In this document: piece after piece, positions 6,901-52,300 of the stretch
How positions within the stretch are numbered: position 1 is the stretch's first letter
How the letters are laid out: each line of letters begins with the position of its first letter
DNA from: Monosporascus cannonballus
Taxonomy: Eukaryota; Ascomycota; Sordariomycetes; Xylariales
Assembly (NCBI GenBank): GCA_004154925.1
Contig: QJNS01000725.1
Location: forward strand, 1-64,000
DNA: 64,000 nucleotides
Direction: 5' to 3'
The notes under the pieces: model-generated
What the model was told of the DNA's origin: nothing
Databases searched by the model: none
Seen by the model: the letters and a program-made list of their open reading frames with translations, nothing else
Program-made: the position numbers and the translations under genes

Positions 6901-8118
6901 AAATTAACAGTATAAAAGATTATGTAATAATATGATATTTGCGCCAAACTAAAGGTTCGGCGATATCAGCTATACGAAGAATTACAGTTATTATTAATCG
7001 CAAAACGACCATAATATTTAGTTATATTCGACTTTATTATTAAACCTTTTATATTAAAAGACTTTATTGCGGGAATATATTACGATAGCATTTTCGTAAT
7101 CGCCGGTCGATTTACAAAGTTTCTTATTTTTTGCCATATTACGAGGATATAAATGCCGAACAAATAACATACAGTTTTTTCAAATATATTTTCAGCATAT
7201 ACGGATTATTTATGGAAATTATTTTAAATGGAAAATTAATATTCGGATTTAACTTTTGGCAAAGCCTAATAGCATAAATCGGTTTAAATCATAAATTATT
7301 TAACGTATTTAAATCGGACAAGGATAAATATATAAAACGGATAAATTAAATTTTCGAAATTCATATACGATATTATATTAATTACGAATAAAATATTTGG
7401 GTTAAAAAATTAATAATCGTATAGTGAATTCATAATACCCGTTATTACAGAAGTATTAAAATAATTTTTATAAATATAAATTTAGGTTATATCCCAAAAG
7501 TTTACAAAAAAATATGTAAGGACGGTTTATTTAATATTAAAGCAATATTTATATCAAAACAATTACGATAATTATATTAAGAAATAATAACAGAATTGGA
7601 ATTCGTACAGAATTATATTAACAAATATTATAATCAGAAAATATTAAAAAAAATTAAATTCCGAAAAAGGGGAAATTGTTTTTTTCGTTGTTAAAAATGT
7701 TTAAACAAAACGACTTAACAAACAATTTAATTTCAAATATATCGGTCCATATAAAACTATTAAGAAAATCTTAGAAAACAATTATTAATTAAAAGTTTTA
7801 CCAAAAGTTAAACTTTATTTAATTTTTAATATTTTTTATTCGAATTTATAACAAATATAATTAAGGTATATACGATATAAAACGACGCAAACGTAAAAGA
7901 TAAATAAATATACGAAATAAAAAAAATGTTCCATATACGGAAATAAAATAAATTGACTTAATACATAATTAAATAAAAAAAATATCCAAATTTGGAAAAT
8001 ATTTGGAAACCTGTTAAAAACCTTATTACTGCCTAACGCTTATTAAAAGGTTTTACTAACAATAACGGAACCGCCCGAAATAATGGTATTCCAGTCCATA
8101 AGATCTAAAAGAAAAACC
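3950..8118 (+). pseudogene. TE1 pol remnant: PR-RT-RNaseH-IN-chromodomain
   Basis: Domains in order: a protease-like core near 4690 (the Asp codon is now AAT); reverse transcriptase with YLDN in place of YLDD at 5805-5816 inside a VLRKYLDIFVVCYLDN context; RNase H around 6180-6300 (LKTDISHYAL-like); integrase with the first catalytic Asp of DFI at 7030 and IYGLFMEIILN near 7195-7230, where the second Asp has become Asn; a GPY/F-type segment near 7745; and a chromodomain at 7953-8060 (YIIK, YPNLENIWKPVKNL). Frames shift between domains and stops are frequent. The chromodomain places TE1 among the chromoviruses. Confidence 0.9.
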
Positions 8119-8600
8119 CCTGATTTATCGTATTTTAATTAATAACGTTTATTTTACTGAAAGCTTATACCTTAATTACAGATTGTAATTTTAATTGCGT
8201 AAAGTTATTAAAATCGTCCAAAGATTAAACGGTGTAATTAATAAATTTTGTACCTTAAGACTGATAGTATTAACGTTAACGACGTATACGAAAAAAACGC
8301 GTAAAAGTTTTGGACAAAGATTTTTCGGCCGCCAGTTTTTCCTTTTTTAATTTTTTTAATGCCGCGATATAACGATTAATTATGGAAATAAGGATTTTAG
8401 TCCCGTTATACGAATAACCCCGACAAATATATTTCTTATAACGAAAAAACCCGTTTCTTTTTTAGTAATATAACTGCCGGGAAAACCAAAAAAATAAGGT
8501 ATTATGTCGAAACTTTCGAATTTAATTAAATTAACCAGGGTAAGTCGTTATTCGGATTTGCGAAAACCACGCTTGAATATACCGGAAAACATATTAAAGG
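8110..8600 (-). pseudogene. TE1 antisense accessory gene (zinc cluster + coiled coil), degraded
   Basis: Read on the minus strand, inward from the 3' LTR, one frame gives a second-half cluster Tyr-x2-Tyr-x6-Tyr at the spacing of C4-x2-C5-x6-C6 of a Zn2Cys6 cluster. It is preceded eight residues earlier by another Tyr, followed by a Lys/Ala-rich helix (AALKKLKKEKLAAEKSL) and an RFFRIRRQRQYYQS segment, and ends with SLDDFNNF-like sequence. The first two cysteine positions are not preserved (Leu and Trp). Homologues at the same place lie in TE2, TE4, TE5, TE6 and TE7. The gene overlaps the end of the sense chromodomain frame. Its function is not known to me; DNA binding is inferred from the spacing only. 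Confidence 0.65.
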
Positions 8601-8664
8601 AATATAAAGAGCTTACCAAAAAAAAGGAAATTTTAAGGGAAAGATTTATGAAAAAGGGAGATCG

Positions 8665-9016
8665 TATTATAACTTAACGCGTTACGGTTTTCAAAAATAG
8701 TTTAACATAACCTAATCATAAGTGCGTGGTGGGGCAGGTTACGTAATGGATTACCAACTTACTAATGGTAAGCCAGTAAGCCGGATTACCAATTTGCTAG
8801 TGGTAATTTAGCAAATAAAAAAAGAATAAATACGGTTATTATTTCCAAAATTTAGATAACTTTAACTTGCAATACAATATCGTTACCCAAGGCATTTTTG
8901 GTATTACGAGATGTGATATGTTATTATATTTATTGCTCAGATTTACACGATACTCCTGCCAACATAAACCCGTACGACTAAGGTTTAATAATTGGTTAAA
9001 CCCCAAGCTCGTCACA
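8665..9016 (+). repeat. TE1 3' LTR and preceding polypurine tract
   Basis: 352 bp, TATTATAAC... to ...CTCGTCACA, directly after the purine tract at 8651-8664. It has one fewer 35-bp hairpin unit than the 5' LTR. The U3 hexamer CACGTG of other copies is TACGTA here (8740-8745), a double RIP product. It is followed at once by the target duplication GACAC (9017-9021). Confidence 0.9.
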
Positions 9017-13189: not shown

Positions 13190-13575
13190 TATGATTGCTT
13201 AGGGTTTAACCAACTATTAAACCTTAGTTACACGGGTTTATATAGGCAGAGGTATCGTGGGAAACTAAGCAATAAATATGGTAACGTATTACGTCTAGTA
13301 ATGCCTAAGGTATCTTGGGTAACGAATTATTATTACAAATTAAAATTATCTAAATTATAAAAATAATAAATATATATATCTTAATTCGGCTTACTAGCTT
13401 ACTACCAGTAAATTAGTGATTTAGCTTACTGGCTTAATATTAATCAATTGGTAAAACGGTTTACTGGTTTACCACAAGTAAGTTGGTTATTTATTATGTA
13501 ATTTGCCCCACCCTGCATTCGTGGTTAGGTTATAGCAAACCGTTTTTGGAGACCGTAGCCCGTTAGGCTATTATA
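13190..13575 (-). repeat. TE2 3' LTR
   Basis: 386 bp in minus orientation. The right end is TATAATAGCC on the minus strand; the left end is a degraded form of the common terminus TGTGACGGCT. It contains the shared R/U5-like half and U3 hairpins of the CTTACTGG type. AGATA precedes it and could be half of a target duplication whose partner is lost. Confidence 0.85.
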
Positions 13576-13599
13576 CGATTTTCTCTTTTTATAAATTTT

Positions 13600-14110
13600 G
13601 CCCTTAACATTTTTTTATCTAGTAAGTTTTTTCCATATTAATTAATATGTTTTCCGGTATATTGAAATATTGTTTTCGCAAATCCAATTATCGATTTGGT
13701 TTAATTAACTGAATTAAATTTAATAGTTTTAATACGATATTTTGTTTTTTTATTTTTTTTCCAATAACTGAATTACCAAACAAAAAATGGGGTTTGCCGT
13801 TATAAGAAATATATTTTTCGAAGTTATTCGTATAACGGAATAAAAATCTTGATTTCCATAATTAATAGTTATATTACGGAATTAAAAATATTAAAAAAAA
13901 TGTAAAAGCCGGACAATCTTTATTCGAAAGTTTTATGCGTTTTTTTCGTATATGTCATTAATGCCAACATTACGAATCCTAAAGTGTGAAATTTGTTAAT
14001 CGGATTTTTTAATTTTAAAATTACTTTAACGGCCTTAGCTATTTAAAGTTAAAATTTATGGTTAAGATTTAGGCTTTAGGTAAGATCAATGTTATTAATT
14101 GGAATGCGAT
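13600..14110 (+). pseudogene. TE2 antisense accessory gene, degraded
   Basis: Plus-strand frame homologous to the TE1 and TE4 antisense genes. It contains RYKKYIF followed by Tyr at x6 (the C4-x2-C5-x6-C6 positions, all now Tyr), then an ILISIIN segment, a Lys-rich helix, and FESFMRFFRICHQCQH-like sequence read through one TAA. Frameshifts and TAA/TAG interrupt it. It converges with the minus-strand chromodomain. Confidence 0.6.
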
Positions 14111-15240
14111 AAACCAAGGGTTTTTTCCCCTTGATTTTATGGATTGGAATACCATTATTTCGAATAATTCCGTTGTTGCTGGTGAAACTTCTTTATTAGA
14201 CGCTAAGCGCCAATAAGAATTTCGGCGGGTTTTCAGGTGTTTTCGGAATCCGGGTTGTTTTTCCACTTAATTAGATACTGGGTAAGTCCGTTTTGTTTCC
14301 ATTTATTAAGGGTTTTTTTTCACCTTATATCCTTATTCGTTTTCCATCTGCATATCTTTTGTACTATATATACCTTAATTATATCCGTTATTAATTCGAA
14401 TAAGAAAATATAAAAACTTAAATCAAGTTTAATTTTAAGTGGAAATTTTAATTAATAATTGTTATTTAAGAATTTCTTTATAAATTTGTATAAATCGACA
14501 TATTAAAAATCGAAAGGTTTTATTAGATTATTTTATTTAAACGTTTTTAGTGACGAAAAAAACTATTTGCATTTCTCGAAAGTTAGTTCATTTAACTTTC
14601 GTTAATTATAATATTTATTTATTTAATTTTGTATATAATTTAATTTTAATTCTATTTTTTAATACAGGCTTCGTAAATATTTTAATATAAAATTTATTTT
14701 GATATTAATTACATCATCATCGCGTACTTCGTCATAAATCTTTAAAATAAACTCAAAATTTGTGTTTGTAAATATTATTTTAATATTTTCGTAATAAGAA
14801 ATATTATAAATTAATTGAATAATAAGTAACTTTTTAATTTAATTATTTTGTTCGTAATTAATGCAACATCGTAAATAGGCTTTCAGAGCATAATACGTTT
14901 GTTTTATTTATTTATGCGTATAGGCTTTAAATACGTTAAATAATTTATAATTTAGATTCATTTATTTTATAAAGCTTTGTTAAAACTTAAACGCAAATAT
15001 TAATTTTTTAATATGAATAAATCTTATTAATTATTCGTATATTTTTCGTATTAAATATTTTTAATATTTTTTTTGGAATTCGTATTTTGTCCGTTCTTTG
15101 GTTTTCTAGGAGACCGTGGTTATACTGCTGGATTTTCAGATATATATCTAAAGATACTGACCGAATTGTCGTAATTTATCACGGACGTAAATAATTTTAT
15201 AGTAATATTAGGGATTATAGAGATGGTTTTAACCAATTAA
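14110..15240 (-). pseudogene. TE2 pol 3' remnant: integrase (core deleted) + chromodomain
   Basis: The chromodomain at about 14190-14320 reads YLIKWKNNPDSENT, then stop, KPAEILIGA on the minus strand and is one of the best preserved here. Upstream, integrase flanks align with TE6, but the catalytic core is missing: near 15010-15030 the sequence jumps from the TE6 equivalent of about 24435 to about 24810, a loss of about 370 bp. The open frame 14069-14266 is a shifted shadow. Confidence 0.8.
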
Positions 15241-20082: not shown

Positions 20083-20538
20083 ATTATATCGGACAAATTT
20101 CGAAAACGTATTAAATCTTTTACTGAAAGTCGTTACAAACTAATTAAGTCGATTTTTTAATTTGGTTTCGAAATTATGCCGTATATGCGTTATTTTAAGA
20201 AAAAGCTTTTTTACAAAATGTTAAAAAGTCGAAAAAGTTATTAAAATTATTTGGCAGCCAATATTTAATCTTATAATAGGAATTATATTTCGCTTTTATC
20301 TTTTAAAAATATCCGGGCCGAAAAACTCCGAATAAATCGAAAAAAACGTTTAGTTATTTAATAACTTTAAAAATTATTTAATCGTATTGTTCGGTTAAAT
20401 TATTAATTTAAATAATTATATTTTAAAGGGATATCGTTTATTTAAAAAAGGCTTAAAAATATAAATAAATTAAAAAAGCGAAAAAAATTAAATGCGGAAA
20501 AAAATCGTAAAAAAAAGAACAAACATAATTTACTTTAA
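20083..20538 (+). pseudogene. TE5 antisense accessory gene: full Zn2Cys6 spacing, all six Cys now Tyr
   Basis: One uninterrupted register (apart from TAA at Gln-type positions) runs over about 150 codons. An N-terminal basic stretch is followed from 20182 by Tyr codons at 20182, 20191, 20212, 20239, 20248 and 20272, giving x2, x6, x8, x2, x7 between them. This is the spacing of the Zn(II)2Cys6 cluster of fungal regulators (C-x2-C-x6-C-x5-12-C-x2-C-x6-8-C). Next come FKNIRAEKLRINRKKRLVI, a predicted long coiled coil, and FKGISFI, KRLKNINKLKKRKKL, a basic tail. No downstream fungal transcription factor domain is present. Tyr at every Cys position fits RIP (TGY to TAY). The element's LTR is unrelated to those of the other carriers, yet the gene lies at the same place and strand. 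Confidence 0.75.
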
Positions 20539-20559
20539 AACTAAATACGATAATAAAAA

Positions 20560-22540: not shown

Positions 22541-22966
22541 TGTGACGGCTAGGTTAATTAACCAACTATTAAACCTAAGTCGACGGGTTTATGTTAGCAG
22601 GAGTATCGTAAGAATCTGAATAATAAATATAGTAACGTATTACGTCTCGTAATATTAAGGGCGTCTTAAGTAATGAACTATTATATTGCAAATATTTAAT
22701 ATTAATAAGTATTATAAACTAAAGTTATCTAAATTATGGAATAACGAACGTACATATACTTATTTATCAATACTTGATTTTGTTAAATTATTGTAATTTT
22801 GCAATAATCCTAACGATTTTAACTTTCGTAAATTTTGCAATAATCCTAATAATCCTAATTTTCGTAAATCTCGCAATAATCCTAATAATCCATTACGTAA
22901 CTTTCTTTTTGGTACTTTATTTATTTTAATTATTTCTGGACATGCCAAACGTATTGGGTTATGATA
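22541..22966 (-). repeat. TE6 3' LTR
   Basis: 426 bp; left end TGTGACGGCTAGG, right end TATCATAACCC on the minus strand, adjoining the purine tract AAAAGGAAAATCG. U3 holds about three 36-bp tandem units; because 36 is divisible by 3 they give a 62-codon Leu-rich open frame (22760-22948) that I regard as a by-product. Confidence 0.93.
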
Positions 22967-23019
22967 CGATTTTCCTTTTCCAGGATTTTCGTCCCGAAAA
23001 TTTTATTCCGTAAGTTTTT

Positions 23020-23640
23020 AATCTTATTAAAACGGGTCGTATTAAAAAATATACTAAACTTTTTTCCAAGGCGAAAACCGTTTAACGCAATTCCTTAATA
23101 ACCGCGGTACTTGCTGCAAACCCTATTAACATAACGTTTTATTTTTATTATAAACGAAAAAAACTAAAATGCAAACTGTTAAAGGACGATTTTTCTCGTT
23201 ATTTATCCTGTATCAAAAATAACTAATCTAATTGTGATATACGGGGTTTAAGCCCAGAACAGCTATAACGTATCGCTGCTTAACACCGGAAACTTGAATT
23301 AGAATTGGAAGTTGCTGAAAAAAAGGCCAACCGGGTTATTTTGGAAACTAACGCCCGTTTACGTCGTTTGCGTAAACAGAAAAAAAATGTAATATGAAAA
23401 AATGATAAAGGCTATATTTCGTAATATCGATAACCTAGAAAAACTAAAGGAGTTGGAACGTTAAGAAAAACGGGCCGACCCGGAGGCCACCGAGGCCACG
23501 TCGGCAAAGGCCGTGCCCCCCCTTAACTAGTCCTCTATCGAAACCACAGATTAATTAATTACTAATTGAGAAGCCCTTAACCCTGCCGCCCCCGACGTTA
23601 CCGGTAAAAATTCCTTAACAGACGCTGGGCATTTATAAGG
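23020..23640 (+). pseudogene. TE6 antisense accessory gene (Zn2Cys6-like + coiled coil), nearly readable
   Basis: The best example of the family. Cluster at 23140-23235: Y, Y, C, Y, C, C with spacings x2, x6, x9, x2, x7, so three of six cysteines survive and three are Tyr. Core segments are KRKKLKCKLL, YLSCIKNN and SNCDIRGLSPEQL. A coiled coil follows (HRKLELELEVAEKKANRVIL, then ARLRRLRKQKK). After a 1-bp slip in an A-run near 23385-23391 comes the end: YEKMIKAIFRNIDNLEKLKE, LER, then an acidic, Ala/Pro-rich, GC-rich tail (23465-23530). It starts close to the 3' LTR, reads opposite to pol, and its end overlaps the chromodomain-coding DNA. Only Gln-type TAA codons and the slip close it. No activation domain or enzyme motif is seen; a DNA-binding role is inferred. 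Confidence 0.8.
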
Positions 23641-26600
23641 TTTTTGGCTAGTTCCTATAAGTTTTCAGAATCTGGGTATTTTTTCCATTTAATTAGGTAT
23701 TAGGTAAATCCGTTTTGTTTCCTTGCGTTAAGGATTTTTTTTACTTCGTATATTTATTCGTTTTTTATTTTTATATCGTCTTATATTATTTGCACTTTAA
23801 TTATGTCTATTATTAATTCGAATAAAAAAACGTAAAAAATTAGATAAAATTTAACTTTTGGTAAAAGTTCTAATTGGTAATTATTTTCTAAGATTTTCTT
23901 AACGATTTTATATAATCCGATATATTTAAAATCGAGTTTTTTGCTAGGTTTTTTCGTTTAAATGTTTTTGATGGCAAGGTAAACCATTTCCCCTTTTTCA
24001 AAGGTTAATCCTTTTAACCGTTTCTTATTATAATATTTACTTATTTAATTCCGTACGAATTCCAATTTTGTTTTTATTTTTAAGTATAATTATCGTAACT
24101 GTTTTAACGTAAAAATTACTTTAACGTTAACTGGACCATCGTCGTATACTTTTCTGTAAACTTTTAAAATAAAACCGAAATTCGCGTTATATAATGTTAT
24201 TTTGATGCTTTCGTGATAACTGGTATTATAAGCTAACTGAACCACAGGTAACTTCTTAACCCAGTTATTTTGTTCGTAATTGATATAATATCGTAAATAT
24301 GTTTCTAAAGTTTGGTTTATTCGTTCCGTTTATTTATCTATCTAAGGTTTAAATGCGTTAGATAACTTATGATTTAAGCTAATTTATGCTATAAGGCCTT
24401 GCCAAAACTTTAATGTAAACGTTATTCCTTTATTTAAGATAATTTCTATAGGTAATCCGTATACGCTGAAAATATGTCTAAAGAAAATGTATATTATTTG
24501 CTCGGCGTTCGTATCCTTATAATAAGGTAAAAAATAAAAAAACTTCGTAAATCGGTAAATAATAACGAAAATACTGTCGTAATGTACTTTTGTTACTAGA
24601 TTTTCGGATAAAGGAAGTTTAGTAATAAAATCCATAATAATTAAATCCTAAGGTTTTTTTAAAATTAATAATAATTGTAATTTTCTATAAGGCTTATGTC
24701 GTTATATTTTGGCCTTATTACAAAGGTTATATTACCTTCGTACCTTTTGAACTATTATTTTTATTTTAAAAAAAAATACGTACGCTAAAGTTATTTTAAG
24801 GTTTTATAAATCTTTGGATGTCTATATAATTGATATTCGTATATATTTCGTATTAAGTCCATCTGATATTTTTTTAGAACTTATATTTTATCTGTTTTCT
24901 GGTTTTTTGGGAAACCGTCGTTGTACTGCTGGATCTTCTAATATATATCCAAAGGTACTGCCCGAATTGTTATAATTTATCAGGGACGTAAATATCCTTT
25001 TATAATAATATCGAAAATTGTATAGCTAATTTTAACTAATTTTTCTTCGAGGTTTGGTCGTTTGCTCAGGGCATTTACTTTGCCGTTTTCTGATCCCTTC
25101 TTATGGATAATAACAAAGTCGAAATTCGCCAATTTTTTTGCGTATTTTAATTATTGTTCTGTAAATTCCTTGGTCGTGGTAAATCGGGTAAAATTTTGAT
25201 AATCCGTATAAACCTTAATTTAATATAAGTTTCTTTTCAGGAAATGCTTAAATTTGCGGAATGCCATAATAATAGCCATAAATTCCTTATCTGGAATATT
25301 ATAATTAAACTTGGTTCCTTTTAACTTATATAAGAAAAATGCGATAAGGTGCAGTTTGCCTTAATTATTTCGTTATCCGATCATTACGCCTAATACATAA
25401 TCCAAAATATCGGTTTCTAGCTCGACGGGGCGACTTGGATCGTACATAATTAATACTGGTTTACTGGTAATTACGTTTTTAATTTTTTGGAACGTTTTTT
25501 CTGTTTCTGGCGTCCATCTGAATTCTTTTTTTTTCTTAATAAGGTTAATTAGGGGTATAGCAATTCTGCTAAAGTTCCGAATAAACTTTCTGTAATAATT
25601 AACGAATTTAAAAAATGCTTATATTTCCTTGACCGTTATTGGCGTTTGCTATTTTGTAATTATAGCGATTTTTTTGGGGTCCATCCTAATATGTTCTGGA
25701 GTAATAATATATCCTAGGCATTCCACTTTTTGCTTATGGAATTAACTTTTTTCTGCATTAATTAATAATTTTGCGTTCTGTAAAGCTTAAAAAACTTTAT
25801 AAACGTATCTTACGTATACCTTTTTTATTTCGGAAAAAATGAGAATATCATCGAGGTAGCACATAACAAAAACGTCGAGGTATTCCCGTAATATATAATT
25901 TATTATTTGTTGGAAGGTTGCCGGTGCGTTCGTAAGTCCTATTAACGTAACTAAGTACTTAAATAATCCGTATTTCGTTTTAAAAGCTATTTTTTATTCG
26001 TATCCCTTTTTGATTTTAATAAGGTTATATCCATCCTTAAGATCGAATACTATAAACCATTTGGCTTTATAAAAGCGGTTTTTCATCTTAGTAATTAGGG
26101 GTAATAATATTCGATCCTTAATAGTAATATTATTTAGTTACCGATAATTAACTACAAATCGTAACTTCCTATTTTTCTTTAATACAAAAAACATTAGGTA
26201 CCCTATTAGTAACTTCGAAGGTTAAATCCATTTTTTTATAACCGATTTTCCAAATATTTTTTAAAAACGCGTAATTCGTTTTTATTAAGGTTATAAATAA
26301 GATAAAACTTTGTTAAAAATCCTTCTTTAAAAATTATTTTATGGTCCTATTTGCTATATTTTGGTAATTTCGTATCAAGCTTTTTTTTAAAAAGCTGCTT
26401 ATATTTATGGTATTATGATAATATATTAATCAAATTTTTTAATTTTTAGGACTATTATTTTAAATCGTTATTTAGTTGCTTTAATTTCGCTTTAATAATA
26501 ATAACGATACGTCGTATTTTTCTTTAATACTTATTTTTTTTTTTATGTTTTGTCCCTTTAGGTAATAAAATATCTGTTGTATCTTTATGCTTACATTCGT

Positions 26601-27900
26601 CGCTATTTTTAATCAAATATTAAGATTTTATATCTTCTAAATCTTACCTATTAATAAGGTATACAGCGAATTTTACTTGGCCAGTTCCCCCGTCGATCAA
26701 AGCCTTGTACTAGTACATCCATGGTTTTCTTAAGATCATATCGTAATTTCTAAATAAAACGATATCGAAATTAACTATTTAATATCGTCCTTAAATAAAG
26801 ATCTTAAGGTAATTAATTTTACGTAAGATTTTTCCGTTATCGTAAACGAAATCTTAACCTTCGGCGTTTGTTGCTATATAAGGTTTTAACTTATATTTCC
26901 ATAATAATTTAAATTTATTAATAACATCCGGTATAATATAGTTTCCGCCTAAAGCTCTGTAGTCCACCATTACAGTATACCAATATGTTCCAATTCGTAT
27001 ATTTAGGGTAATAAGGTTATTAACGGCTTTTATCGTTGCGTTTAAAGCCTTTTTTAGGAATATCTCTTAACTCCTTTAAGTTTTGTCGTCCTGCAACTTT
27101 TTTATAGGCGACCTTCTCCTTTTAACTCCTATTCGAATTTATCGAGTTTTGTTTGTAATTCTTTGTACAGCGCGTCGAGCTGCTGTATTTATCGTTCTTG
27201 CCGGCGTACTATACCTTCGAATTATATTAACTGTTTTTAGTTATGTTATAATTCCTTTCCCCACTGGGTAAATTATTCCTTAATGTAATATATGGCTTCC
27301 CATTAAGCCTTATTTTTTTCTTACTGAAGGTTTTATATAAATCGTTAAATTTTTTCTTTTAAGGTTTGTCGTTTATCAGAATTTGTGGTAAATACTAGTT
27401 AAAAATAAAAATCCGTAATAACCTTTTGGCAATATTTCTTCACGGTATGTTAGATTAATTCCTTTTTCGTTTAGTAGTTATACTATTTGTAGTAACAGAA
27501 GGGGTCTTCTTACGGATACCATTTTTTTTAAAGTTAGCTTTCCGTTGTTACCAGCTGAAAAAAATCGTTTTTAAAGGCGATCGATCGAAAATGCCGATAT
27601 TATTATTTATCGTTTTTGTTATTTCCCGTTCGGTTAAGAAAATTAAATCCCTCGTAATATATTCGAATAATTTTGCTATGGATATATCGTTTTTATTTTT
27701 TATAAGTAAAGCAGTTTTATCGTTTATAATAAATAGCATATATCCTGCCGTATCGATCAAGGGTTCTGGGACAAACTTTCTTTATCCAGCCCTAATATTT
27801 TTCCAGTTATCTTTTAAAGATATTTTATTATTTTTTAATTATTTGCTAAGCTAGGTTCCTGGCTTTTTGCATCCTTTATTAAATTTCCTGCTACGGGGGG
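23560..27900 (-). pseudogene. TE6 pol remnant: PR-RT-RNaseH-IN-chromodomain
   Basis: Minus strand, from high to low coordinates: protease with a VDYRALGGNYIIP active site (about 26940-26990; the residues after Asp read Tyr-Arg, compatible with RIP of Cys-Gly); RT with YLDVFVMCYLDDILIFS, YLDD intact at 25847-25858; RNase H with ETDILDYVLGVMIG near 25390; integrase 24384-24635 with MDFITKLPLSEN, then VIIYRFTKF (middle Asp region altered), FSVYGLPIEIILNKG (third motif Asp to Asn); chromodomain 23640-23740 (YLIKWKKYPDSENL). It overlaps the tail of the antisense gene at its 3' end. Confidence 0.9.
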
Positions 27901-28982
27901 CCTGGCTTATATTTCGGTCGAATTATGTTAATAAGCTTATTTTCTTTTTTCTGATTTTCCTTAAATTATCCTTCGGGTATAAGTTTCTAATTATTTCGTC
28001 GTATCTTTTTGGGTAAAAGGCATTTATAAGCCTTATATCCTTTTTTTCCGCAATTATAACATTCGATATAACTCTAATTCTTTTTATGGGTGGCTCCCAG
28101 CTTTATAAAATTTGGTTTAGTACCATAGGAAATATTATTACGCCGAAAAGCGCTGGTATTGGCCGTATGCCAAAACTTATTATCATACTTTCCTTTGGTA
28201 CTTTTTATACGCTAAACATATTATTAATTATTAATCTTAACCGCTATAACGATATAATCTGACAAATAATTAGGCCGGTCAAACTTAAAAAACTTTTTTT
28301 ATATTTTTTTCTTTAGGCCGTCGAAAAACTTGGCCATTAATGCTTTTTGTTCCTAATTCAACTTAAATACCAGCTGAATAAGCATGCTGCCGTAACTAGA
28401 TATTAATCCTTTTTGTCGTAATTATTAAATCTGCATTTCGGCTTTTATTTTTTCGTTTATTATTCCAAATACCTTTATTAACGTTTATTCGAACTGTTCG
28501 TAATCGTTATAAATTCGTATTACTTCCGGGTTTTATTTTTCTTAAGGCAAGGTAATATGTTTTCTTATAACGGGCTTAAACCAAGTAATCGCGTTTCCAG
28601 TAAATCGTTTAACCGCGAACTCGATTTATATAATGGGGGTAATAAATTAAATGGGAAAATACCCAAAATAAGTTCGGCATTAAGTTAAAAATAATTATAG
28701 CTTAATTAAAGTTCCGTTAAAAAGTTCCGGCTTAAAGGATTTAAAAACTTTTCTTAATTTTTTGATAAAGTTCAGCTAAATAACCTGGTTTAACTAAAAG
28801 GATTTTCCCGTTTCGGGTACCTTTCCTTTCTTTTTAAATTTCTTATAGGCGGCTTGGAAAAACGTAATAAGATTATTTTTATCTTATTCAAGTTAAAGGA
28901 TACGTTCGTTCATAACATCCAGGCGTTAAAAGATTTCCTTTCGAAAAAAGCGAGGCTGCTCCTTTTTTTCCTCGGATTCCAT
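27900..28982 (-). pseudogene. TE6 gag remnant
   Basis: Starts with an intact ATG at 28982 (MESEEKKEQPRFFRKEIF), followed by a coiled-coil-like RLDVMNERI region. The CCHC knuckle at 28020-28061 reads CYNCGKKGYKAYKC, with the His now Tyr and all three Cys retained. TAA at Gln positions interrupts it. The 108-codon plus frame at 28854-29180 is antisense shadow. Confidence 0.85.
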
Positions 28983-29101
28983 TCCGGTATCAGGGTCCTC
29001 AGGGACCTGATAAGTAAGTTATTCGGGTTATTTGCTAGTAAATATAGTGTCGGCGATATTGCTCAAAATTTAACGGTACTATTAAACAAAAGCTTACAAC
29101 G

Positions 29102-29527
29102 TATAACGGCTAAGTTAATTAACCAATTATTAAACCTAAATCGACAGGTTTATGTTAACAGGAGTATCGTAAAAATCTAAGCAATAAATATAATAACGTA
29201 TTACGTTTCGTAATACTAAGGGCGTTTTAAGTAATAAACTATTATATTATAAATACTTAATATTAATTAATATTGCAAGCTGAAACTATTTAAATTATGG
29301 AATAACGAACATACATATACTTATCTATTAACACTTAATTTTGCTGGATTATTGCAATTTCGCAATAATCCCAACGATCCTAACTTTCGTAAATCTTGCA
29401 ATAATCCCAATAATCCTGACTCTCGTAGATCTCGCAATGATCCCAATAATCCATCACGTGACCTTCTTTTTGGTGCTCCATTTGTTTTGACTGTTTCTGG
29501 ACATGCCAAGCGTGTTAGGTCATGACA
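29102..29527 (-). repeat. TE6 5' LTR
   Basis: 426 bp, right end TGTCATGACCTAACACGC on the minus strand, left end TATAACGGCTAAG. CACGTG is intact at 29455-29460. It has 36-bp tandem units in U3 as in the other copy. The internal region next to it begins CGTTGTAAGCTTTTG on the minus strand, where the primer binding site is expected; this is not a TGG-type start. Confidence 0.93.
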
Positions 29528-33727: not shown

Positions 33728-35530
33728 ATTACGTATTAAATATAATAATAAAAATACCGAAATAATTAAGGCAAATTATACCTTTTTCTATTTTTCTTAT
33801 ATACATTAAGAAAAACCGAATTTAATTACAGCATTCGAAATAAAAACTTTATCGTTATTATTATAATATTTTAAAAATTTAAGTATTTTTTAAAATGAAA
33901 TTTATATTAAGTTAAAACCTATCCGGAATAATAAAATTTTATCTAATATATTATAATTAAGAAACTTATAAAATAATAATTTCGTTATGCCGAAAAATCA
34001 GCAAACTTTAATTTCGTTATTATTTATAAAAATATCAAAAAATAATAAAATAAATATTTTAACCAAATAATTAAATTTTAAAAAGAAATTAATTACAGTT
34101 AACTCTATAATTTTGATATTATTACAAAAAGAAATTTACGTCCGCAATATATTGAGATAATTTGGGCAGTATCTCGTTATATATATTAGAAAATCTATTA
34201 ATATAACGATAATCTTCCAAAAACTAAAAAATCAATAAAATACAAATTTTATAAAAATGCCCAAAAGGTCTAAGACGAAATATATCTAAATATCAGTTAT
34301 ACAGATATACAACGAGTAACAAAGCCGTAAAACGACTTTAACGTATATATTGTTTATTTAAAATTAAATTAATTATAATAAAAATTATAAAGTAATACGA
34401 TATTGGCGCCAAAATAAATACTTGACGGTATAAGCCATATGGAAAATAATAATTATTCCTATTTATAAAACAACTATCATATCTAATTATATTCGATTTT
34501 ATTACTAAGTTTCTTCTGTTAAAATCTTTGGTTATAAAAATATATTTCAATAGTAATTTGGTAATATTTAAGTAATTTACGTAATTTTCTTATTTTTTTA
34601 CTATATTACAAAGATAAAACCGCCGAATAACTAATATATTTTTCTGTTAAATAAATTTTTATTACATATAAATTATTAATAAAAGTTGATTCAAAATGAA
34701 AACTGATATTTGTATTTAAGTTTTTATGAGGCCTTATAATTTAAAATATTTAAACTATAATAAATAAACAAATAAATTTAATACAGTATATTTCAAACGT
34801 TTATTTATAATATTATACTAATAATAAACAAAATAATTAGGGTAAAACTTCATTTATTTAATAATTAATTTATAATACTAATTATTACGAAAATATTAAA
34901 ATAATATTTACGAACGCAAATTTAGGTTTTATTTTAAAAGTTTTCAAAAAAATTCATAAGAAGGGTTTAATTAATATTAAAATAATTTTTCCGTGAAAAC
35001 AATTATAACGATCATACTAAAAGAATAAAAATAAAATTAAAATTCGTACACAACCACATAAATAAATATTACAACCAGAAAAAATTAAATAATCCATTTT
35101 CGAAAAAGAGAAAATTGTTTTTTTTCGTTACCAAAAATATTTAAACGAAACAACTTAATAAAAACCTAGATTTTAAAAATATCAATTTATAAAGAATAAT
35201 CAAGAAGATTTCAAAAAATAATTATTAGTTAGACCTTTTATCAAAAATTAAATTTCGTTTACTTTTTAACCTTTTTTATTCAAACTATTCACGGATATAA
35301 TTAAGATATATACGGTATAAGACGATATAAAACTAAAAGATAAATAGGTATACCAAATAAATAAAATTTCGATAAACGAAAATAAAACGGATTTATTTAG
35401 TACCTAATTAAGTAGAAAAAATATGCGGATTTCGAAAATATCTATGAATTCGGTAAAAACCTTATTGGTGCCTAGCATCTATTAAAAAGCTTTTATTAAT
35501 AATGACGGAACTACCGGAAATAATGGTATT
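33728..35530 (+). pseudogene. TE4 pol remnant, part 2 (RNase H, integrase, chromodomain)
   Basis: Resumes with the second ATTAC (33728-33732) and continues the RNase H frame. The integrase region (about 34400-34750) has lost most readable motifs. The chromodomain is at 35400-35490 (YLIK-stop-KKYADFENIYEF, then GKNLIGA). Stops are frequent and compatible with RIP. The 70-codon minus open frame at 34338 is a shadow. Confidence 0.8.
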
Positions 35531-35539
35531 TTGATTTAC

Positions 35540-36095
35540 AAAATCTAAAAAGGGAAGTTCTTGGTCCGTTATATTTTAATTAATAACGTTTACCTTATTA
35601 AAAGCTTATACTTCGATCATAAACTTTAATTCCAATTGTATAAGGTCGTTAAAAACGTCCAAGGATTAAAAAGTACGATTAATAAATTTCGCACCTTGGG
35701 ATTGATAGTATTGGCGTTAACGACGCATACGAAAAAACGCGTAAAAGCTTTGAGTAAAGATTTTTCGGCTATTAATGTTTTCTTTTTTAACCTTTTCGAC
35801 TTTGCGATATAACGATAAATTATGGAAATAGCGATTTTTATTCCGTTATACGAACAGCTTCGGCGAATATTTTTTTATAACGAAAAACCCTGTCCATTAT
35901 TTGGTATTAAAGCTGCCGGGTAAAACAACAAAAGAGCAAGATATTATGTTAAAATTTTCAAATTTAATTAAATTAGCTATAACAAATTGCTATGCGAATT
36001 TGCGAGAATAACGCTTAGATATACCGAAAGATATATGTAATGGATTCAAACGGTTTATTAAAAGCAAAAAAAAAAACATCTTAGGAGCAAGATTT
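35540..36095 (-). pseudogene. TE4 antisense accessory gene, degraded
   Basis: Minus-strand reading from just inside the 3' LTR. Cys-x6-Tyr-x8-Tyr at the C2-C3-C4 spacing, then, after a 1-bp deletion, Tyr-x2-Tyr-x6-Tyr is replaced by KK(Y)IRRSCSY. A helical segment follows with KRLKKKTLIAEKSLLKAF and RQRQYYQS, then SLDVFNDL. A TGT codon survives at the second cysteine position, where TE1 has TGG. The first cysteine position is not recognisable. Confidence 0.6.
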
Positions 36096-40999: not shown

Positions 41000-41500
41000 T
41001 TCCGTTTATTTATTAATGTGGTAAGTAATTTTTCTTTTTTTATACTTATTATATCGGGTCGTATCGAAAAATCCTGTTTTCGCAAACGTATTAACGTTTT
41101 TATTTTTACAAAACGTATTATATTGCTAAGTTTTATAATATCTTAAAAGAATTCTTATTTTTATTGCCGTTTTGTCGGCGTGCCCTATAAAACGTATCGT
41201 AATTTTGGGAAATACGCCGGCTATATATAATATAGTAATTTTTGTAATTTATTTGGCTTTTCGGAATTTAAGTACAAGAAATTTCTTAATAAGAAAAACC
41301 GTTTGTAACGCAAAAAGGAATAAATCTGTAAAACTTTGCGTAATATTGCAAATAAATTAAACCGTTTGCAAAAATAACGAAGATTATTTTGCCGTCATGA
41401 AATTAAAATATTTTGTCGTAATATTTAAAGTGCGGAAGCGATAAAAAAATTTAAACGCCTTGAAAAAAAATAAAAATAATTAAAAACTGCCGTTATAATT
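41000..41500 (+). pseudogene. TE7 antisense accessory gene, Zn2Cys6 spacing kept
   Basis: Plus-strand cluster: Tyr 41156, Cys 41165, Tyr 41186, Tyr 41213, Tyr 41222, Cys 41243, giving x2, x6, x8, x2, x6, the exact Zn2Cys6 spacing with two of six Cys left. After a Lys-rich stretch comes the coiled coil (LRNIANKLNRL, RRLFCRHEIKIFCRNI, SAEAIKKFKRLEKK). TAA at Gln positions interrupts it. The 62-codon open frame 41172-41360 is a shifted shadow. Confidence 0.72.
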
Positions 41501-41559
41501 GTTATATTAACGCAGGCCGCAGCTAACTGGCCTGATATCCCGGTTACTAATTAATCGAC

Positions 41560-44500
41560 CTTTAATTGGGACGCGCCCGTTATTATCAGTAAAAGTTTTT
41601 TAATAAGCGTTAGGCGCTAATAAGATTTTTGGCAGGTTTTTAGGTATTTTCGGAATCCGGGTACATTTTTAACTTAATTAGGTATTGGGTAAATCCGTTT
41701 TATTTTTGCATATCGAAAATTTTCTTTATTTCATATATTAATTTATTTTTTACTTTTACGTTATTTTATACCGTATATACCTTAATTATATTTATTATTA
41801 ATTCGAATAAAAAAAATATAAAAAATTAAATAAAATTTAATTTTTAATAAATATTCGAATTAATAATTATTTTTTTAATATTTTTTTAACGATTTTGTAA
41901 AAACCGATATATTTAAAATCGAATTTTTTGTTAAATCTTTTTTTTAAATATTATTTGTAACGAAAGAAATTATTTCCCTTTTTTCGAAAATTAATTATTT
42001 TAACTTTTTCTGATTATTATATTTATTTACTTAATTTTATACGAATTCCCGTTTTATTTTAATTTTTAAGGTAATTATCGTAATTATTTTAACGTAAAAA
42101 TTATGTTGATATTAATTAAATTATTATCGCGTATTTTTTATAAATATTTGGAATAAAACCAAAATTTGGGTTTATAGGTATTATTTTAATACTTGTATAA
42201 TAATTAATATTATAAGTTAATTATGTAATTAATAATTTCTTAACTTTATTATTTTGTCCGTAATTAATATAATTTCGTAAAAGAAATTTAAAATTTAATT
42301 TATTCGTTTTATTTATTTATTTTTTTAAGGTTTAAATACGTTAAATAACTTATAATTTAGGCCGATTTATATTATAAGGCTTTATTAAAACTTAAATGCG
42401 AATATCGATTGTTTATTTAATATCATTGTTATTAATAATCCGTATATATCAAAAATATATTTAAAAAAATATATGCTAATTATTCGTTATTTATGTTTTC
42501 GTAATATGATAAAAAATAAGAAAGTTTCGTAAATCGATCGACAATTACGAAAATACTGTCGTAATATATTTTTATAATTGGATTTTTTGATATAAAAAGT
42601 TTAATAATAAAGTTAAATATAATTAAATACCATAATCGTTTTACGACTAATAATAGCTATAATTTTCCGTATAATTTATATCGTTAAGCTTTTATTTTGG
42701 CATAAATATTATATTACCGTATAATTTTCTGTACCGTTAATTTTATTTTGGGAAAAAATATATACGTTAAAATCGTTTTAAGGTTTTATAAATCCTTAAC
42801 TATTTATATAATTAATATTCGTATATTTTTCGTATTAGATTGTTCTGGTATTTCTTTAAAATATATATTTTATTTATTTTTCGGTTTTCCGAAAAATTAT
42901 TATTATGTTATTAAATTTTTTAATATTTATTATTAGGTATTGCCTAAATTATCGTAATTTATCGTAAGCGTAAATATCTCTTTATAATAATATCAAATAT
43001 TATATAACTAATTTTAATTAATTTTTCCTTAAGGTTTGGTCGCCGGCTTAAAGTATTTATTTTGCCGTTTTTTAATTTTTTTTTGTAAATAATAACGAAA
43101 TTAAAGTTCGTTAATTTTTTGCATATTTTAATTATTGTTTTTTAAATTTCTTAATCGTAATAAATCTGGTAAGATTTTAATAATCCGTATAAATTTTAAT
43201 TTGGTATAAGTTTCTTTTTAAAAAGTACTTAAATTTTTAAAATACCATAATAATAGCTATAAATTCTTTATTCGGAATACCGTAATTAAGTTCGATTCTA
43301 TTTAATTTGTACGAAAAGAATATAATAAGGTACAGTTTGCCTTAATTATTTTATTATCCGATTATTACGTTTAATACGTAATCCGAAATATTGGTTTTTA
43401 ATTTAACGGAATAATTTAAATTATATATAATTTATATTAACTTGTTAATAATCGTATCCTTAATATTTTAAAATACTTTTTCTGTATCTGGCGTTTATTT
43501 GAAATTTTTTTTCGTAAGATTTATTAAAAATATAGTTATTTTGCTTAAGTTTCGAATAAATTTTTGTAATAATTAACGAATTGAAATAATCTTTATACTT
43601 TTTTAATTATTATTAACGTTTGTTATTTTATATTTATAACGATTTTTAAAGGTTTATCTTAATATGTTCTGGGATAATATTATATTCGGGATATTTTATT
43701 TTTTATATATAAAATTAACTTTATTCTGTATTAATAAATAATTTTATATTTTGTAAAACTTAAAGAACTTTATAAACGTATCTTATATATACTTTTTTAA
43801 TTTTCGAAAAAAATAAAAATATTGTTAAAATAGTAAATAACGAAAATGTCGAAATATTTTCGTAATATATAATTTATTATCCGTTAAAAAATTATTAATA
43901 AATTTATAAATCCTATGAATATAATGAAATACTTAAATAATCCGAATTTTGTTTTAAAAGTTGTTTTTTTTTATATTTTTTCTTAATCTTAAAAAAATTA
44001 TATTTATTCTTAAAATCGAATATTATAAATTATTCGGCTTAATAAAATCGGTCTTTTATTTCCGTAATTAAAAATAATAATGTTCGATTTTTAACAGTAA
44101 TATCGTTCAGTTGCCGATAATTAACCATATAGCGTAATTTCCTATTTCTTTAAGTAAGAAAAATATAAGATATCTTATTGGTAACTTTAAAGTTTAAATT
44201 TATCCTTTTTATAGCCGATTTTCTAGGTATTTTTTGAAAATACGTAATTTATTTTTGTTAAGGTTATAAATAAAGTAAAACCTTGTCGAAAATCCGTATT
44301 TAAGGATTATCTTAAAATTTTATTTGCTATATTCTGGTAATTTGTATTAAGCTTTTTCTTAAAGAACTATTTGCATTTATAGTATTATAATAACATATTA
44401 GTTGGATTTTTTAATTTTTTAAGCTGTTATTTTTATTATTCCAGATTATTATTTAATTTCTTTAATTACGTTTTAATAATAATAACGATATATCGTATTT

Positions 44501-48999: not shown

Positions 49000-49330
49000 T
49001 TTCGAAAATTCTTACCTTCAAAATTCTTTTTTTCTCGTTTGATAAATAACCCTTTCCTTTTTTCGTTTTATTCGTTTACGAAAGTAAAAAGCGTTAATTC
49101 GTTCGAAAGTTTTACCATAGTATAGCGTAAGGTTTTGTTATTGGACGAATTAAAGGAACAAAAACGTTAAAAATAAGAATAACTGGAGCCGCCGTTATCC
49201 CTGCTATGTTAGTGCAGGCCGCGGTCGATTAACTCGATATTCTGGTTATTAACTGGTTAATTGTTAATTCGAACGCGCTCGTCGTTGTCTGTAAAAGGCT
49301 TTTAAGAGAGGTTCAGCGCTAATGGGATTT
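49000..49330 (+). pseudogene. TE8 antisense accessory gene, tail only
   Basis: Plus-strand frame with RLRKQKALIRSKV-like sequence (about 49070-49110) matching the coiled-coil core of the TE6 and TE7 genes, then a shifted frame with Ala/Val-rich sequence (ITGAAVIPAMLVQAAVD). The cysteine cluster region is missing, the interval to the LTR being shorter than in relatives. Confidence 0.5.
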
Positions 49331-52300
49331 TGGCGAGTTTTTAGGTATTTTCGGAATCTGGATGCCGTTTTATTTAATTACGTACTGAGTAAATATATTT
49401 TTGTTTTTTATATTAAATATTTTTTTCAGCTTATAAAATAGTTTGTTTTTTATATTTATGTCGTGTTGTCCCTTGCGTATTACTATGGTATTTGCCGTTA
49501 ATTCGAATAAAAAAATATGAAAAACTAGATAAAATTGGACCTTAGGTGGGAGTTTTAATTAATATTTATTTTCTAAGATTCTTCGGCTATTTTATTTCGA
49601 TCGATATATTTGAAATCGAGTTTTTTGCTGCGTTGTTTCATTGGAATATTTTTTAGTCAAATGAATTATTTTTTACTTTTCAAAAGTTAATTTTTTAACC
49701 TTTTCTAATTGTAGAATTTATTGATATAGTTATATACGGATTTTGATTCTATGTTTTTCATATAGCTATTTAAGCTATTTTGACGTATGTATTTCTTTAA
49801 TATTGATTGGATTATTGTTACGTATTTTTTGAAGACTTTTAGAGTAAAACAGAAATTTCCGTGTATTGAAATTTTTCAATGTTTTCGTAATAATTGGTAT
49901 TATAAGCTACCTAATTATGATATAATTTTCAAATTAATTTTCTAATCGAAATTAATATAATACCCTAATTAAAGTTTTAAAATTTAGTTCGTTTGTTTTA
50001 TTTATTTATTTTCTTGTAATGTAAAACATTAAATAATTTGTAATTTAGGGCGATCTCTATTATAAGGTCTTGCGAAAAATTAGATGTAAATATTTATCTT
50101 CTATTTGAAATAATTTCTATTAATTATCCGTATATACTAAAAATATGTCTGAAAAAATATATGTCATTTGTTAGCCGTCTGTATTCTTATAATATATTAA
50201 AAAAGGAGACCATGTTTTGAATCGATTGACGATTACGAATATGCTATCGTAATATATTTCAGCTATAGAATTTTTAAAAAGAAGATGTTTGGTAATAAAA
50301 TCGAATATAACGAAATATTATAGTTGCTGTACGACTAGTAATAGCTGTTACTTTTTGTAAGGCTTATATGGTTATACTTTAGCCATGTTACAAACGTAGT
50401 ATCGTCGTCGTATTTTCTGAATTATTGTTTTTATTTTAAAAAAGAAATAGGTGCGTTAATTTTGTTTGAGAGTTTAGTAAATATCTAGATGTCCGTATGG
50501 TTAATATTAATATATGTCTCGTACCAAGTCCTTTTGGTATTTTACTGCAACTTATATTTGGTTTATTTTTTGATCCTTTGAGAAATCGCCGTTATTGTGC
50601 TAGAATTTCTGATGTATATTAAAAAGTACTGCCCAAATGGTCGTAATTTATTGTGGGCGTAAATATTCTTTTATAATGATATTAAAATTATAAAGACAAC
50701 TTTAACAAATTTTCTTTCGAGGTTTGATTACTTGCTTAAAATATCGGCTTTAACGTTTTTAAGCCCTTTTTGTACATAATAAGGAAATTAAATTTATTCA
50801 TTTTTTCGCGTATTTTAATTATCGTTCTGTAAATTCCCTGGTTGTACTAAATCGGGTAAAATTTTAATAATTCCTATAAATCTTAATCTGATATAAGTTT
50901 CTTTTTAGAAAATATTTAACTTCATAAAATGCTATAATAACGGCCATAAACCTTTTATTTAGAATATCCTAATTCCAAATCATTCTTTTTAATTTGTATA
51001 AAAACACTATAATAAGCGGTAAATTGCCTTAATTATTTCGTTTTCCGATTATTACGTTTAAGACGTAATTAGAAATATCGGTTTTTAATTAACACAACGG
51101 GTTAAATCGTATATAATTAGTACTGGTTCGTTAGTAATCGTATTCTTAATATCCTAAAACGCTTTTTTATTTCGAAACATAAGTTAGGGATATAGTTATT
51201 CTGCTAAAGTTCCGAATAAATCTTCTGTAATAATTGACGAATCCAAAAATGACTGTATTTTCTTGACCGTAATTGGCGACTGTTATTTTCTAACTATAGA
51301 GAATTTCTTAAGGTTTATATAAGAATATCCTGTGGTAATAATATATTCTTGATATTTTATTTTCTGTATATAAAACTGACTTTTTGCTGCGTTAATAAGT
51401 AGCTCTGCATTCTGTGAAATTTAAGGAATTTTATAAACGTATTTTATATATGTTTTTTCCGTTTCTAAGAAAATAAGAATATCGTTAATCTAGCAAACGA
51501 CGAAAATACCGAGGTATTTTCGTAACATATAATTAATCATCCGTTAGAAAGTTATTCATACGTTCGTTAATTTTATTGGTATAATTCAGTATTCAAAAAA
51601 TCTCTATTTCGTTCTGAAGGCTGTTTTGTATTCGTATGTTTCCTTAATCCTAATAAGGTTATATTTATTTCTGAAAACGAATAGTATACATTATTTGGTG
51701 CCGTAAAGTCGGTTTTTTATTTTTATAATGAAGAGTACTGATATTTGATCTTTAATAGTGATGTCGTTTAATTATAAATAGTTAACTATAAGTTCCAATT
51801 TTCAGTTTTTTATTTGGTGTAAAAAATATTGAATATTCTGCTGGTAATTTCGAAGGTCGAATCCATCCTTTTTATAACCGATTTTCTAAGTATTTTAAAA
51901 AGCCCGCAATTCGTTTCCGCTAAGGTTATAAATATGGTAAAATTTCGTCAAAAACCTTTAAGAATTATTTCATGATTTTATTCGTTATCTTCTGGTAATT
52001 TTGTATTAAGCTTTTTCTTTAAAAGTTACTTATATCGATAGTATTATGGTGTCATATTAGTTAATTTTTGATTTTTAGAGCTCTTACTTTAAATCGTTAT
52101 TCGGTTATTTAAATTTCGCTTTGATGGTATTAATAATATGTCCTATTTTTCTTTGATACCTATTTCTTTTTGTGTTTTGTTTTTTTGGATAATAAGGCTT
52201 TTGTCGTATCCTTATACCTGTATTTATCGCTATTTTTGATCGAGTATTAAGATATCCTTTTTTTTCCCTTGTTAATGGAGTATAAAGCAAACCTTACGTG

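Follow-up and report, generated by a model that had tools for sequence, protein, structure and literature searches.

What is a gene that runs against gag-pol doing at the 3′ end of a fungal chromovirus, and has it been kept there as a gene? The question is raised by a 64,000-nucleotide stretch of Monosporascus cannonballus DNA (contig QJNS01000725.1, positions 1 to 64,000; hereafter the window), which lies in a genome of 88.8 Mb, is AT-rich and holds decayed long terminal repeat (LTR) elements. The element under study, TE6 (22541..29527, gag-pol on the minus strand), was recognised as a chromodomain Ty3/gypsy element by alignment of its LTRs, by flanking TTTTA and by Pfam matches. An antisense gene (23029..23638, plus strand; start approximate, stop codon at 23636-23638) begins some 60 bases in from the inner end of the element's 3′ LTR; it was delimited by profile matches and is interrupted by stop codons and a single change of frame. 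We find that this gene is real and that its frame was under coding selection, and that the half of the LTR on the side of U3 (the unique 3′ region) and the front of the gene differ as one block between elements whose pol is near-identical once changes of the kind made by repeat-induced point mutation are set aside.

The two parts of the TE6 frame (23032-23388 and 23375-23626, plus strand) match a profile of 15 copies from the same genome, in which TE6 itself was left out, with E values of 2e-47 and 5e-28, and the frame matches a profile of open public relatives at E 4e-31. Searching the read-through frame against its own genome gave at least 150 scored matches of 297 candidates, a figure that includes TE6 itself and counts some copies double where the frame changes; queries of the TE6, TE5 and TE1 types, named after elements of the window, each gave at least 150 matches, queries included. 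The genomic context of the gene was read in this genome, at 50 loci made up of the 30 best matches and 20 chosen for few stops. A chromodomain or RNase H domain lies on the opposite strand at 43 of these (42 with a chromodomain, one with RNase H only) and neither at the other seven, and no same-strand chromodomain or RNase H occurs among the up to three best matches listed per locus. Where present, the chromodomain sits 457-564 nucleotides from the gene start, and in the 33 loci with a recognisable tail the gene stop falls 576-610 nucleotides from the start.

Repeat-induced point mutation (RIP) produces transitions only, and a tyrosine codon TAY is the product of a RIP-type G-to-A change at a cysteine codon. 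At 47 of the 50 loci (L037, L040 and L044 have displaced frames and were left out of this and the transversion tests), 277 of the 282 cells in six cysteine columns read TGY or TAY, so that the cysteine positions do not vary freely across copies. Since RIP makes transitions only, transversions were used for the coding test. Over 141 codons, parsimony counted 214, 149 and 320 steps at the first, second and third codon positions, against 82, 96 and 81 by phase in 191 flanking columns; this third-position excess in the gene, beside a flat flank, indicates selection on the frame as protein. A coarser test, a column chi-square of transversions, gave p-values of 0.0005 for the whole gene, 0.025 for the coil and 0.08 for the zinc part alone. 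Of 233 stops, only 112 stand at positions where most sibling copies have Q, W or R, a count that mixes subfamilies, takes in codons after frame changes and was not used as evidence. Position, cysteine columns, transversions and family matches together support the initial annotation in its description of an element-encoded, antisense, long-retained gene for a zinc-cluster-like protein with a coiled coil.

The history of the gene departs from that of its carrier. All comparisons bearing on exchange use transversion distances only, and the labels U3, R (repeated region) and U5 (unique 5′ region) were assigned from orientation. At the 16 loci whose RNase H match was of sufficient length, a Mantel test of gene against RNase H distances gave r = 0.46, with 69 of 2000 permutations as high, and r = -0.07 once L059, a genome copy of TE5 type, was removed; this mismatch prompted the analysis of the block. 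(L052 was left out of the Mantel test, the sliding windows and later comparisons.) In sliding windows, the distance is raised from about -300, in the LTR, to about +420, in the coil, and is flat on either side; in TE6 the block thus delimited (22724..23448, borders approximate) takes in the U3-side LTR half and the front ~420 nucleotides of the antisense gene. Four gene types occur on one backbone, namely that of TE6 (type A), that of TE7, that of TE1, TE2 and TE4, and that of the B loci. Types A and B differ by 0.040 in pol next to the gene (0.055 within A, 0.028 within B) and by 0.111 in RNase H (0.160 within A, 0.060 within B); in the first 300 nucleotides of the gene they differ by 0.31 (0.057 within A, 0.030 within B), and third codon positions in the block differ by 0.36 between types.

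The elements of the window tell the same story. Pol next to the gene differs by 0.01-0.10 in all pairs and the outer LTR half by 0.01-0.09, with the locus L010 apart at 0.28-0.34; the U3-side LTR half differs by 0.13-0.32 between types and 0.02-0.06 within types (L010 left out), and the gene front by 0.27-0.38 between types and at most 0.08 within. TE1, TE2, TE4, TE6 and TE7 share the pol end and outer LTR half and differ in the U3-side half and the gene, so the earlier statement that lineages with unrelated LTRs share the gene is incorrect for five of the six copies confirmed in the window, which have the same backbone with the block exchanged. A different backbone is found in the TE5-type locus L059, whose RNase H is 0.32 identical to the others. 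Across 18 elements (12 B, 4 A, TE7 and TE1, with pol over 2.7 kb), distances within and between types were 0.027 and 0.037 in pol, 0.026 and 0.310 in the gene front (360 nucleotides), 0.049 and 0.216 on the U3 side, and 0.119 and 0.104 in the outer LTR half.

On a tree of pol transversions the gene types are intermixed. A single pol clade of B is rejected by the approximately unbiased test (p-AU 0.004 with 18 rows; 5.7e-6 with L051 and L056, outliers in pol that are in the 20-row set and were left out of the 18-row set; 0.030 in a shorter 33-row set), and a single clade of A is borderline (p-AU 0.054 with 18 rows, 0.0024 with the two outliers). The A3 subtype is clustered on pol in the 33-row set (5 changes versus 11.2 in shuffles; clade not rejected, 0.23). 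The gene-front tree supports B (100) and A3 (99.8) with 33 rows; with 20 rows it supports A (95/95), leaves B unsupported and places TE7 on a long branch beside B. TE2, TE4 and the A3 loci except TE6 were left out of the 20- and 18-row sets, having short flanks or being thought interrupted, and the 33-row pol analysis took in 16 of the A3 loci. The mixing of types on the pol tree, combined with their grouping in the gene front, argues that block and backbone have different histories.

In public sequence sets, the profile of 15 own-genome copies found 27 proteins, and a second profile, built from 17 of these, brought the number to 129, of which 120 were listed. Open relatives are about 200 amino acids long. 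Pyricularia oryzae has several (e.g. MGG_18021 and MGG_15916), and others occur in Cordyceps javanica, Colletotrichum orbiculare, Apiospora, Hirsutella, Metarhizium, Beauveria, Gaeumannomyces, Cryphonectria, Monosporascus, Fusarium and many metagenome contigs; their source labels, where present, mostly read 'hypothetical protein', and a few rows have an unrelated bacterial name. The 17 proteins, picked as full length out of the 27, have six invariant cysteines in their alignment; among the ten outside it, P0002 and P0006 keep all six, P0025 keeps three, and the rest are without the region wholly or partly. The TE5-type profile added seven relatives, six of them from Monosporascus, and these, together with the L059 frame, align with the TE6-type family along 176 columns including the cysteines (hhalign 99.2%, E 3.6e-19), which places the TE5 copy in that family, as had been proposed. 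A scan of IMG/VR returned 159 pattern matches with none confirmed, no relative was matched in plasmid records, and NCBIfam gave nothing useful for five proteins.

The product consists of a basic N-terminus (mean net charge +3.5), a Zn2Cys6-like motif, a coiled coil and an acidic tail (-5.4). An acidic-aromatic dipeptide is present in 78 of 87 tails (52.9 in shuffles, maximum 64), and the tail presumably resembles an activation region. In TE6, translation places the six-position motif x2,x6,x9,x2,x7 at 23140..23235 on the plus strand, a spacing that agrees with the one first proposed provided that tyrosine is counted at three of the six positions; for TE7, alignment gives x2,x6,x8,x2,x6, again as proposed. 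The coiled-coil part of TE6 follows at 23238..23518 (plus strand), as judged from profile matches to position 159 and from predicted helices in the relative P0001. Zn2Cys6 clusters have the spacing CX2CX6CX5-12CX2CX6-8C. Of 141 fetched proteins, 100 contain the cysteine motif and the remaining 41 include fragments; the six conserved cysteines of the motif have the CX2C-CX2C arrangement. The gap between Cys 2 and Cys 3 is six residues in 38 of the 100, seven in 59 and eight in three, and the remaining gaps fit Zn2Cys6 spacing.

Likeness to Gal4-type factors (PF00172) has to be judged at several levels. The six cysteines with CX2C pairs, followed by a coiled coil and an acidic tail, are shared with these factors, and all 20 PDB matches of the predicted fold of P0001 are zinc-cluster DNA-binding proteins, which from their entry names we take to be Zn2Cys6 proteins, the closest being Pho7, Hap1, Gal4 and Leu3. 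Unlike them, the antisense proteins stay below the Pfam cut-off, mostly have seven residues between Cys 2 and Cys 3, and are without the basic residue after Cys 2 and the proline before Cys 4 that seven zinc clusters of the same genome both have. P0001 scores 11.5 bits against PF00172, for which the curated cut-off is 21, and at E ≤ 1 the family is matched by four of the 27 public relatives (best E 0.13) and one of the 15 own-genome copies (E 0.0052). Aligned by hhalign with the seven own-genome zinc-cluster domains, the 17 relatives gave a probability of 8.4 over 17 columns, out of register. A sequence search of the PDB gave eight matches at E ≥ 0.062, none named as a zinc cluster; a viral structure library gave no match below E 4.8, and the single structure match listed for the TE5-type model was unrelated. 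Formal membership of PF00172 is ruled out by the sub-cut-off scores and the lack of profile likeness to the genome's own zinc clusters. The product is nonetheless predicted to bind DNA, and in its layout it would resemble a miniature Gal4-type transcription factor; the 'DNA-binding accessory factor' of the initial annotation is thus favoured by motif, predicted fold and layout, while the family assignment that it suggested checking does not hold.

What would such a protein do? The explanation that we consider best, and to which we give an even chance, is that the ~200-residue zinc-cluster/coiled-coil antisense protein, predicted to bind DNA, regulates its own LTR, and that U3 and the DNA-binding half are exchanged as a cassette. 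An antisense transcript would start within the 3′ LTR or close to it; the protein would dimerise via its coiled coil, its zinc cluster would bind sites in U3, and its acidic, tryptophan-containing tail would act on transcription. Exchange of the block might then yield elements of different regulatory specificity, in the way that lambdoid phages swap immunity regions. In those regions the DNA-binding part of the regulator and its presumed target differ as a block between close elements; the likeness to the fungal elements lies in this block-wise difference, and repression or exclusion is for them an analogy only. A broader version, in which ascomycete chromoviruses carry a U3-matched antisense Gal4-like factor, swap its DNA-binding half with U3 and are sorted, as by immunity regions, into groups that are compatible or incompatible inside a single genome, we put forward tentatively, as a possibility more doubtful than probable. 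Several observations tell against regulation by an exchanged cassette. Linkage alone would also carry U3 along with the gene front. The A3 and A8 subtypes of A differ in the block (TE6 versus L057: gene 0.13-0.14, U3 0.20), and the whole LTR of L010 is unlike the others, with U3 values of 0.30-0.42, both of which blur the pattern. Upstream of the gene in L010 (G000:C118:86389-89742), the outer LTR half is unlike the others as well, yet the pol end is that of the shared backbone, which suggests that there may be more than one mode of LTR exchange.

Regulation of the LTR has to be set against other roles and origins. The protein might instead bind DNA or chromatin in integration targeting or protection from silencing, acting with the integrase chromodomain, for at 42 of 50 loci its gene runs against the chromodomain and a basic N-terminus with a zinc motif would suit chromatin binding equally well. 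The diversified block, however, takes in the U3-side LTR half while integrase and chromodomain are uniform, so that a partner in U3 fits better than one in integrase, and the acidic-aromatic tail looks like an activation region; we regard a role in targeting or protection as unlikely. Nor need the block have been exchanged at all if it changes at roughly tenfold the rate of the remaining element. The intermediate distances of A8 and A3 in the block (0.05-0.19 over the first 420 nucleotides of the gene) point that way and thus also weigh against exchange, but within types the block varies as little as pol does (0.026 versus 0.027), third codon positions differ too (0.36) where protein selection should not raise the rate tenfold, and the gene types intermingle on the tree of pol, all of which makes rapid evolution improbable.

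Recent capture of a host zinc-cluster gene by one element, or a chance frame opposite pol, is scarcely credible. Fungi are rich in zinc-cluster genes, with 111 matches in this genome, but several widely diverged types lie at the same place, three of them with at least 150 matches each; the codon-position signal lies within the first 150 codons, mostly beyond the overlap with pol, and the zinc clusters of this genome are not matched by the profile. As a sole explanation, capture or chance is ruled out by the codon-position transversions and the alignment of the TE5 and TE6 families. A more serious candidate, which we judge quite possible if a little short of an even bet, is that the gene is the BRTN of Botrytis cinerea Boty-like elements, found here in further fungi: position and strand agree, and the carrier is likewise a chromodomain gypsy element. 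Neither BRTN nor Botrytis nor Sclerotinia appears among the names of the 120 listed relatives, a weak negative given that many rows are nameless and 7,992 candidates were scored, and the zinc motif and the exchanged block are absent from descriptions of brtn in the portions available.

An antisense gene at this position is already known, and the joint block of gene front and U3 is new. Zhao et al. reportedly described the brtn antisense gene in Boty-like gypsy elements in 2011. Human T-cell leukaemia virus type 1 (HTLV-1) carries HBZ, an antisense gene near its 3′ LTR whose nuclear coiled-coil product regulates the provirus; place and coiled coil are alike, its bZIP stands instead of a zinc cluster and its carrier is a retrovirus, and we know of no exchange of HBZ with U3. 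According to the available parts of four sources, brtn of B. cinerea and Sclerotinia lies antisense between pol and the 3′ LTR of Boty-like gypsy elements (PMC8365987, PMC7264820, PMC4227169, PMC5987419), like the present gene in a chromodomain gypsy element, a comparison by position and strand alone. As excerpted, one of these also lists antisense open reading frames (ORFs) without assigned function, at the same place and strand, in the plant LTR elements Grande, RIRE2, Retand and PvRetro13 (PMC7264820). A further paper, in its accessible portions, predicts a DNA-binding TRP28 domain for Retand and a nuclear product for Grande, proposes a regulatory role and names HBZ of HTLV-1 among antisense genes (PMC11963269). 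Retand, as far as these excerpts describe it, is unlike TE6 in being a plant element with domain PF04195 and no chromovirus, whereas the TE6 carrier has a chromodomain. The accessible text of the review 'LTR Retrotransposons in Fungi' mentions neither antisense nor zinc (PMC3248453), and that of a Verticillium survey does not mention antisense (PMC3441728). No report of a zinc-cluster antisense gene in fungal LTR elements, or of U3 exchange, was found among what were mostly titles and abstract starts, with few subscription journals. LTR retrotransposons have for years been known to carry antisense accessory genes to which no function was assigned, and here the layout of a regulator and natural 'allele swaps' with the neighbouring U3 make action on the element's own LTR directly testable. 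The family is widespread in Sordariomycetes, well-studied species among them, under the label 'hypothetical protein'; if the proposal is right, retrotransposons would have evolved their own system of self-regulation and specificity, and dozens of fungal hypothetical proteins would be explained.

As for its carrier, TE6 is a chromovirus: it has LTRs, a target-site duplication, Gag, reverse transcriptase, RNase H and a chromodomain at the pol end. Its 3′ LTR (22541..22966) aligns with its 5′ LTR (29102..29527), both on the minus strand, and TTTTA precedes the first and follows the second. Over the aligned stretch, which includes short flanks, the pair is about 72 transitions and 21 transversions apart, a transition-rich divergence as expected of RIP after insertion. 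On the minus strand lie Gag (28311..28619; PF03732, E 2.6e-5), reverse transcriptase (25703..26182; PF00078, RVT_1, E 3.8e-26), RNase H (25121..25516; PF17919/PF17917), an SH3_Tf2-1 domain by Pfam and, at the pol end, the chromodomain (23604..23750; PF00385, E 7.6e-9), the last 35 nucleotides of whose match overlap the antisense gene tail to tail.

Remains of the gene had been claimed for seven LTR elements of the window, and they are confirmed in six: besides TE6, these are TE7 (41051..41629, plus strand; profile match 41051-41614, E 1.7e-15, and alignment), TE1 (8114..8674, minus strand; E 6e-6 with the TE6-type profile, and also matched by the TE1-type profile, with at least 150 matches in its own genome search), TE2 (13560..14249, plus strand; E 4e-41) and TE4 (35429..36001, minus strand; E 7e-41), both of TE1 type with matches that extend beyond the gene, and TE5 (20083..20541, plus strand), which has the different backbone, is identified by its genome search with at least 150 matches and its family match, and has tyrosine at all six cysteine positions. 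The TE2 and TE4 matches come from a TE1-type profile built on three sequences, which also matches TE6-type and B-type loci at E about 1e-14 to 1e-17. In the seventh, TE8 (49064..49331, plus strand), there are possible remains in the form of two collinear fragments with weak matches at E 5.1 and 1.9; control scans gave best E values of 0.8 or worse for the reversed window and 0.29 or worse for a Markov shuffle.

Among the at least 150 TE5 matches listed, L059 (G000:C132:110000-114000) is the one with a stop-free antisense frame; its RNase H, chromodomain and antisense gene are all open, and nearly all other listed copies carry stops. This frame overlaps the chromodomain ORF by 146 nucleotides, tail to tail, and at L059 1996-2141 the conserved C-terminal tail of the TE5-type proteins is coded opposite the basic C-terminus of pol, so that double coding may explain its unusual conservation. 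At L046 (4656-5285, plus strand) and L024 (44-547, minus strand), a second antisense gene, of TE1 type, lies near the first, and this closeness to another gene type points to nested or tandem elements.
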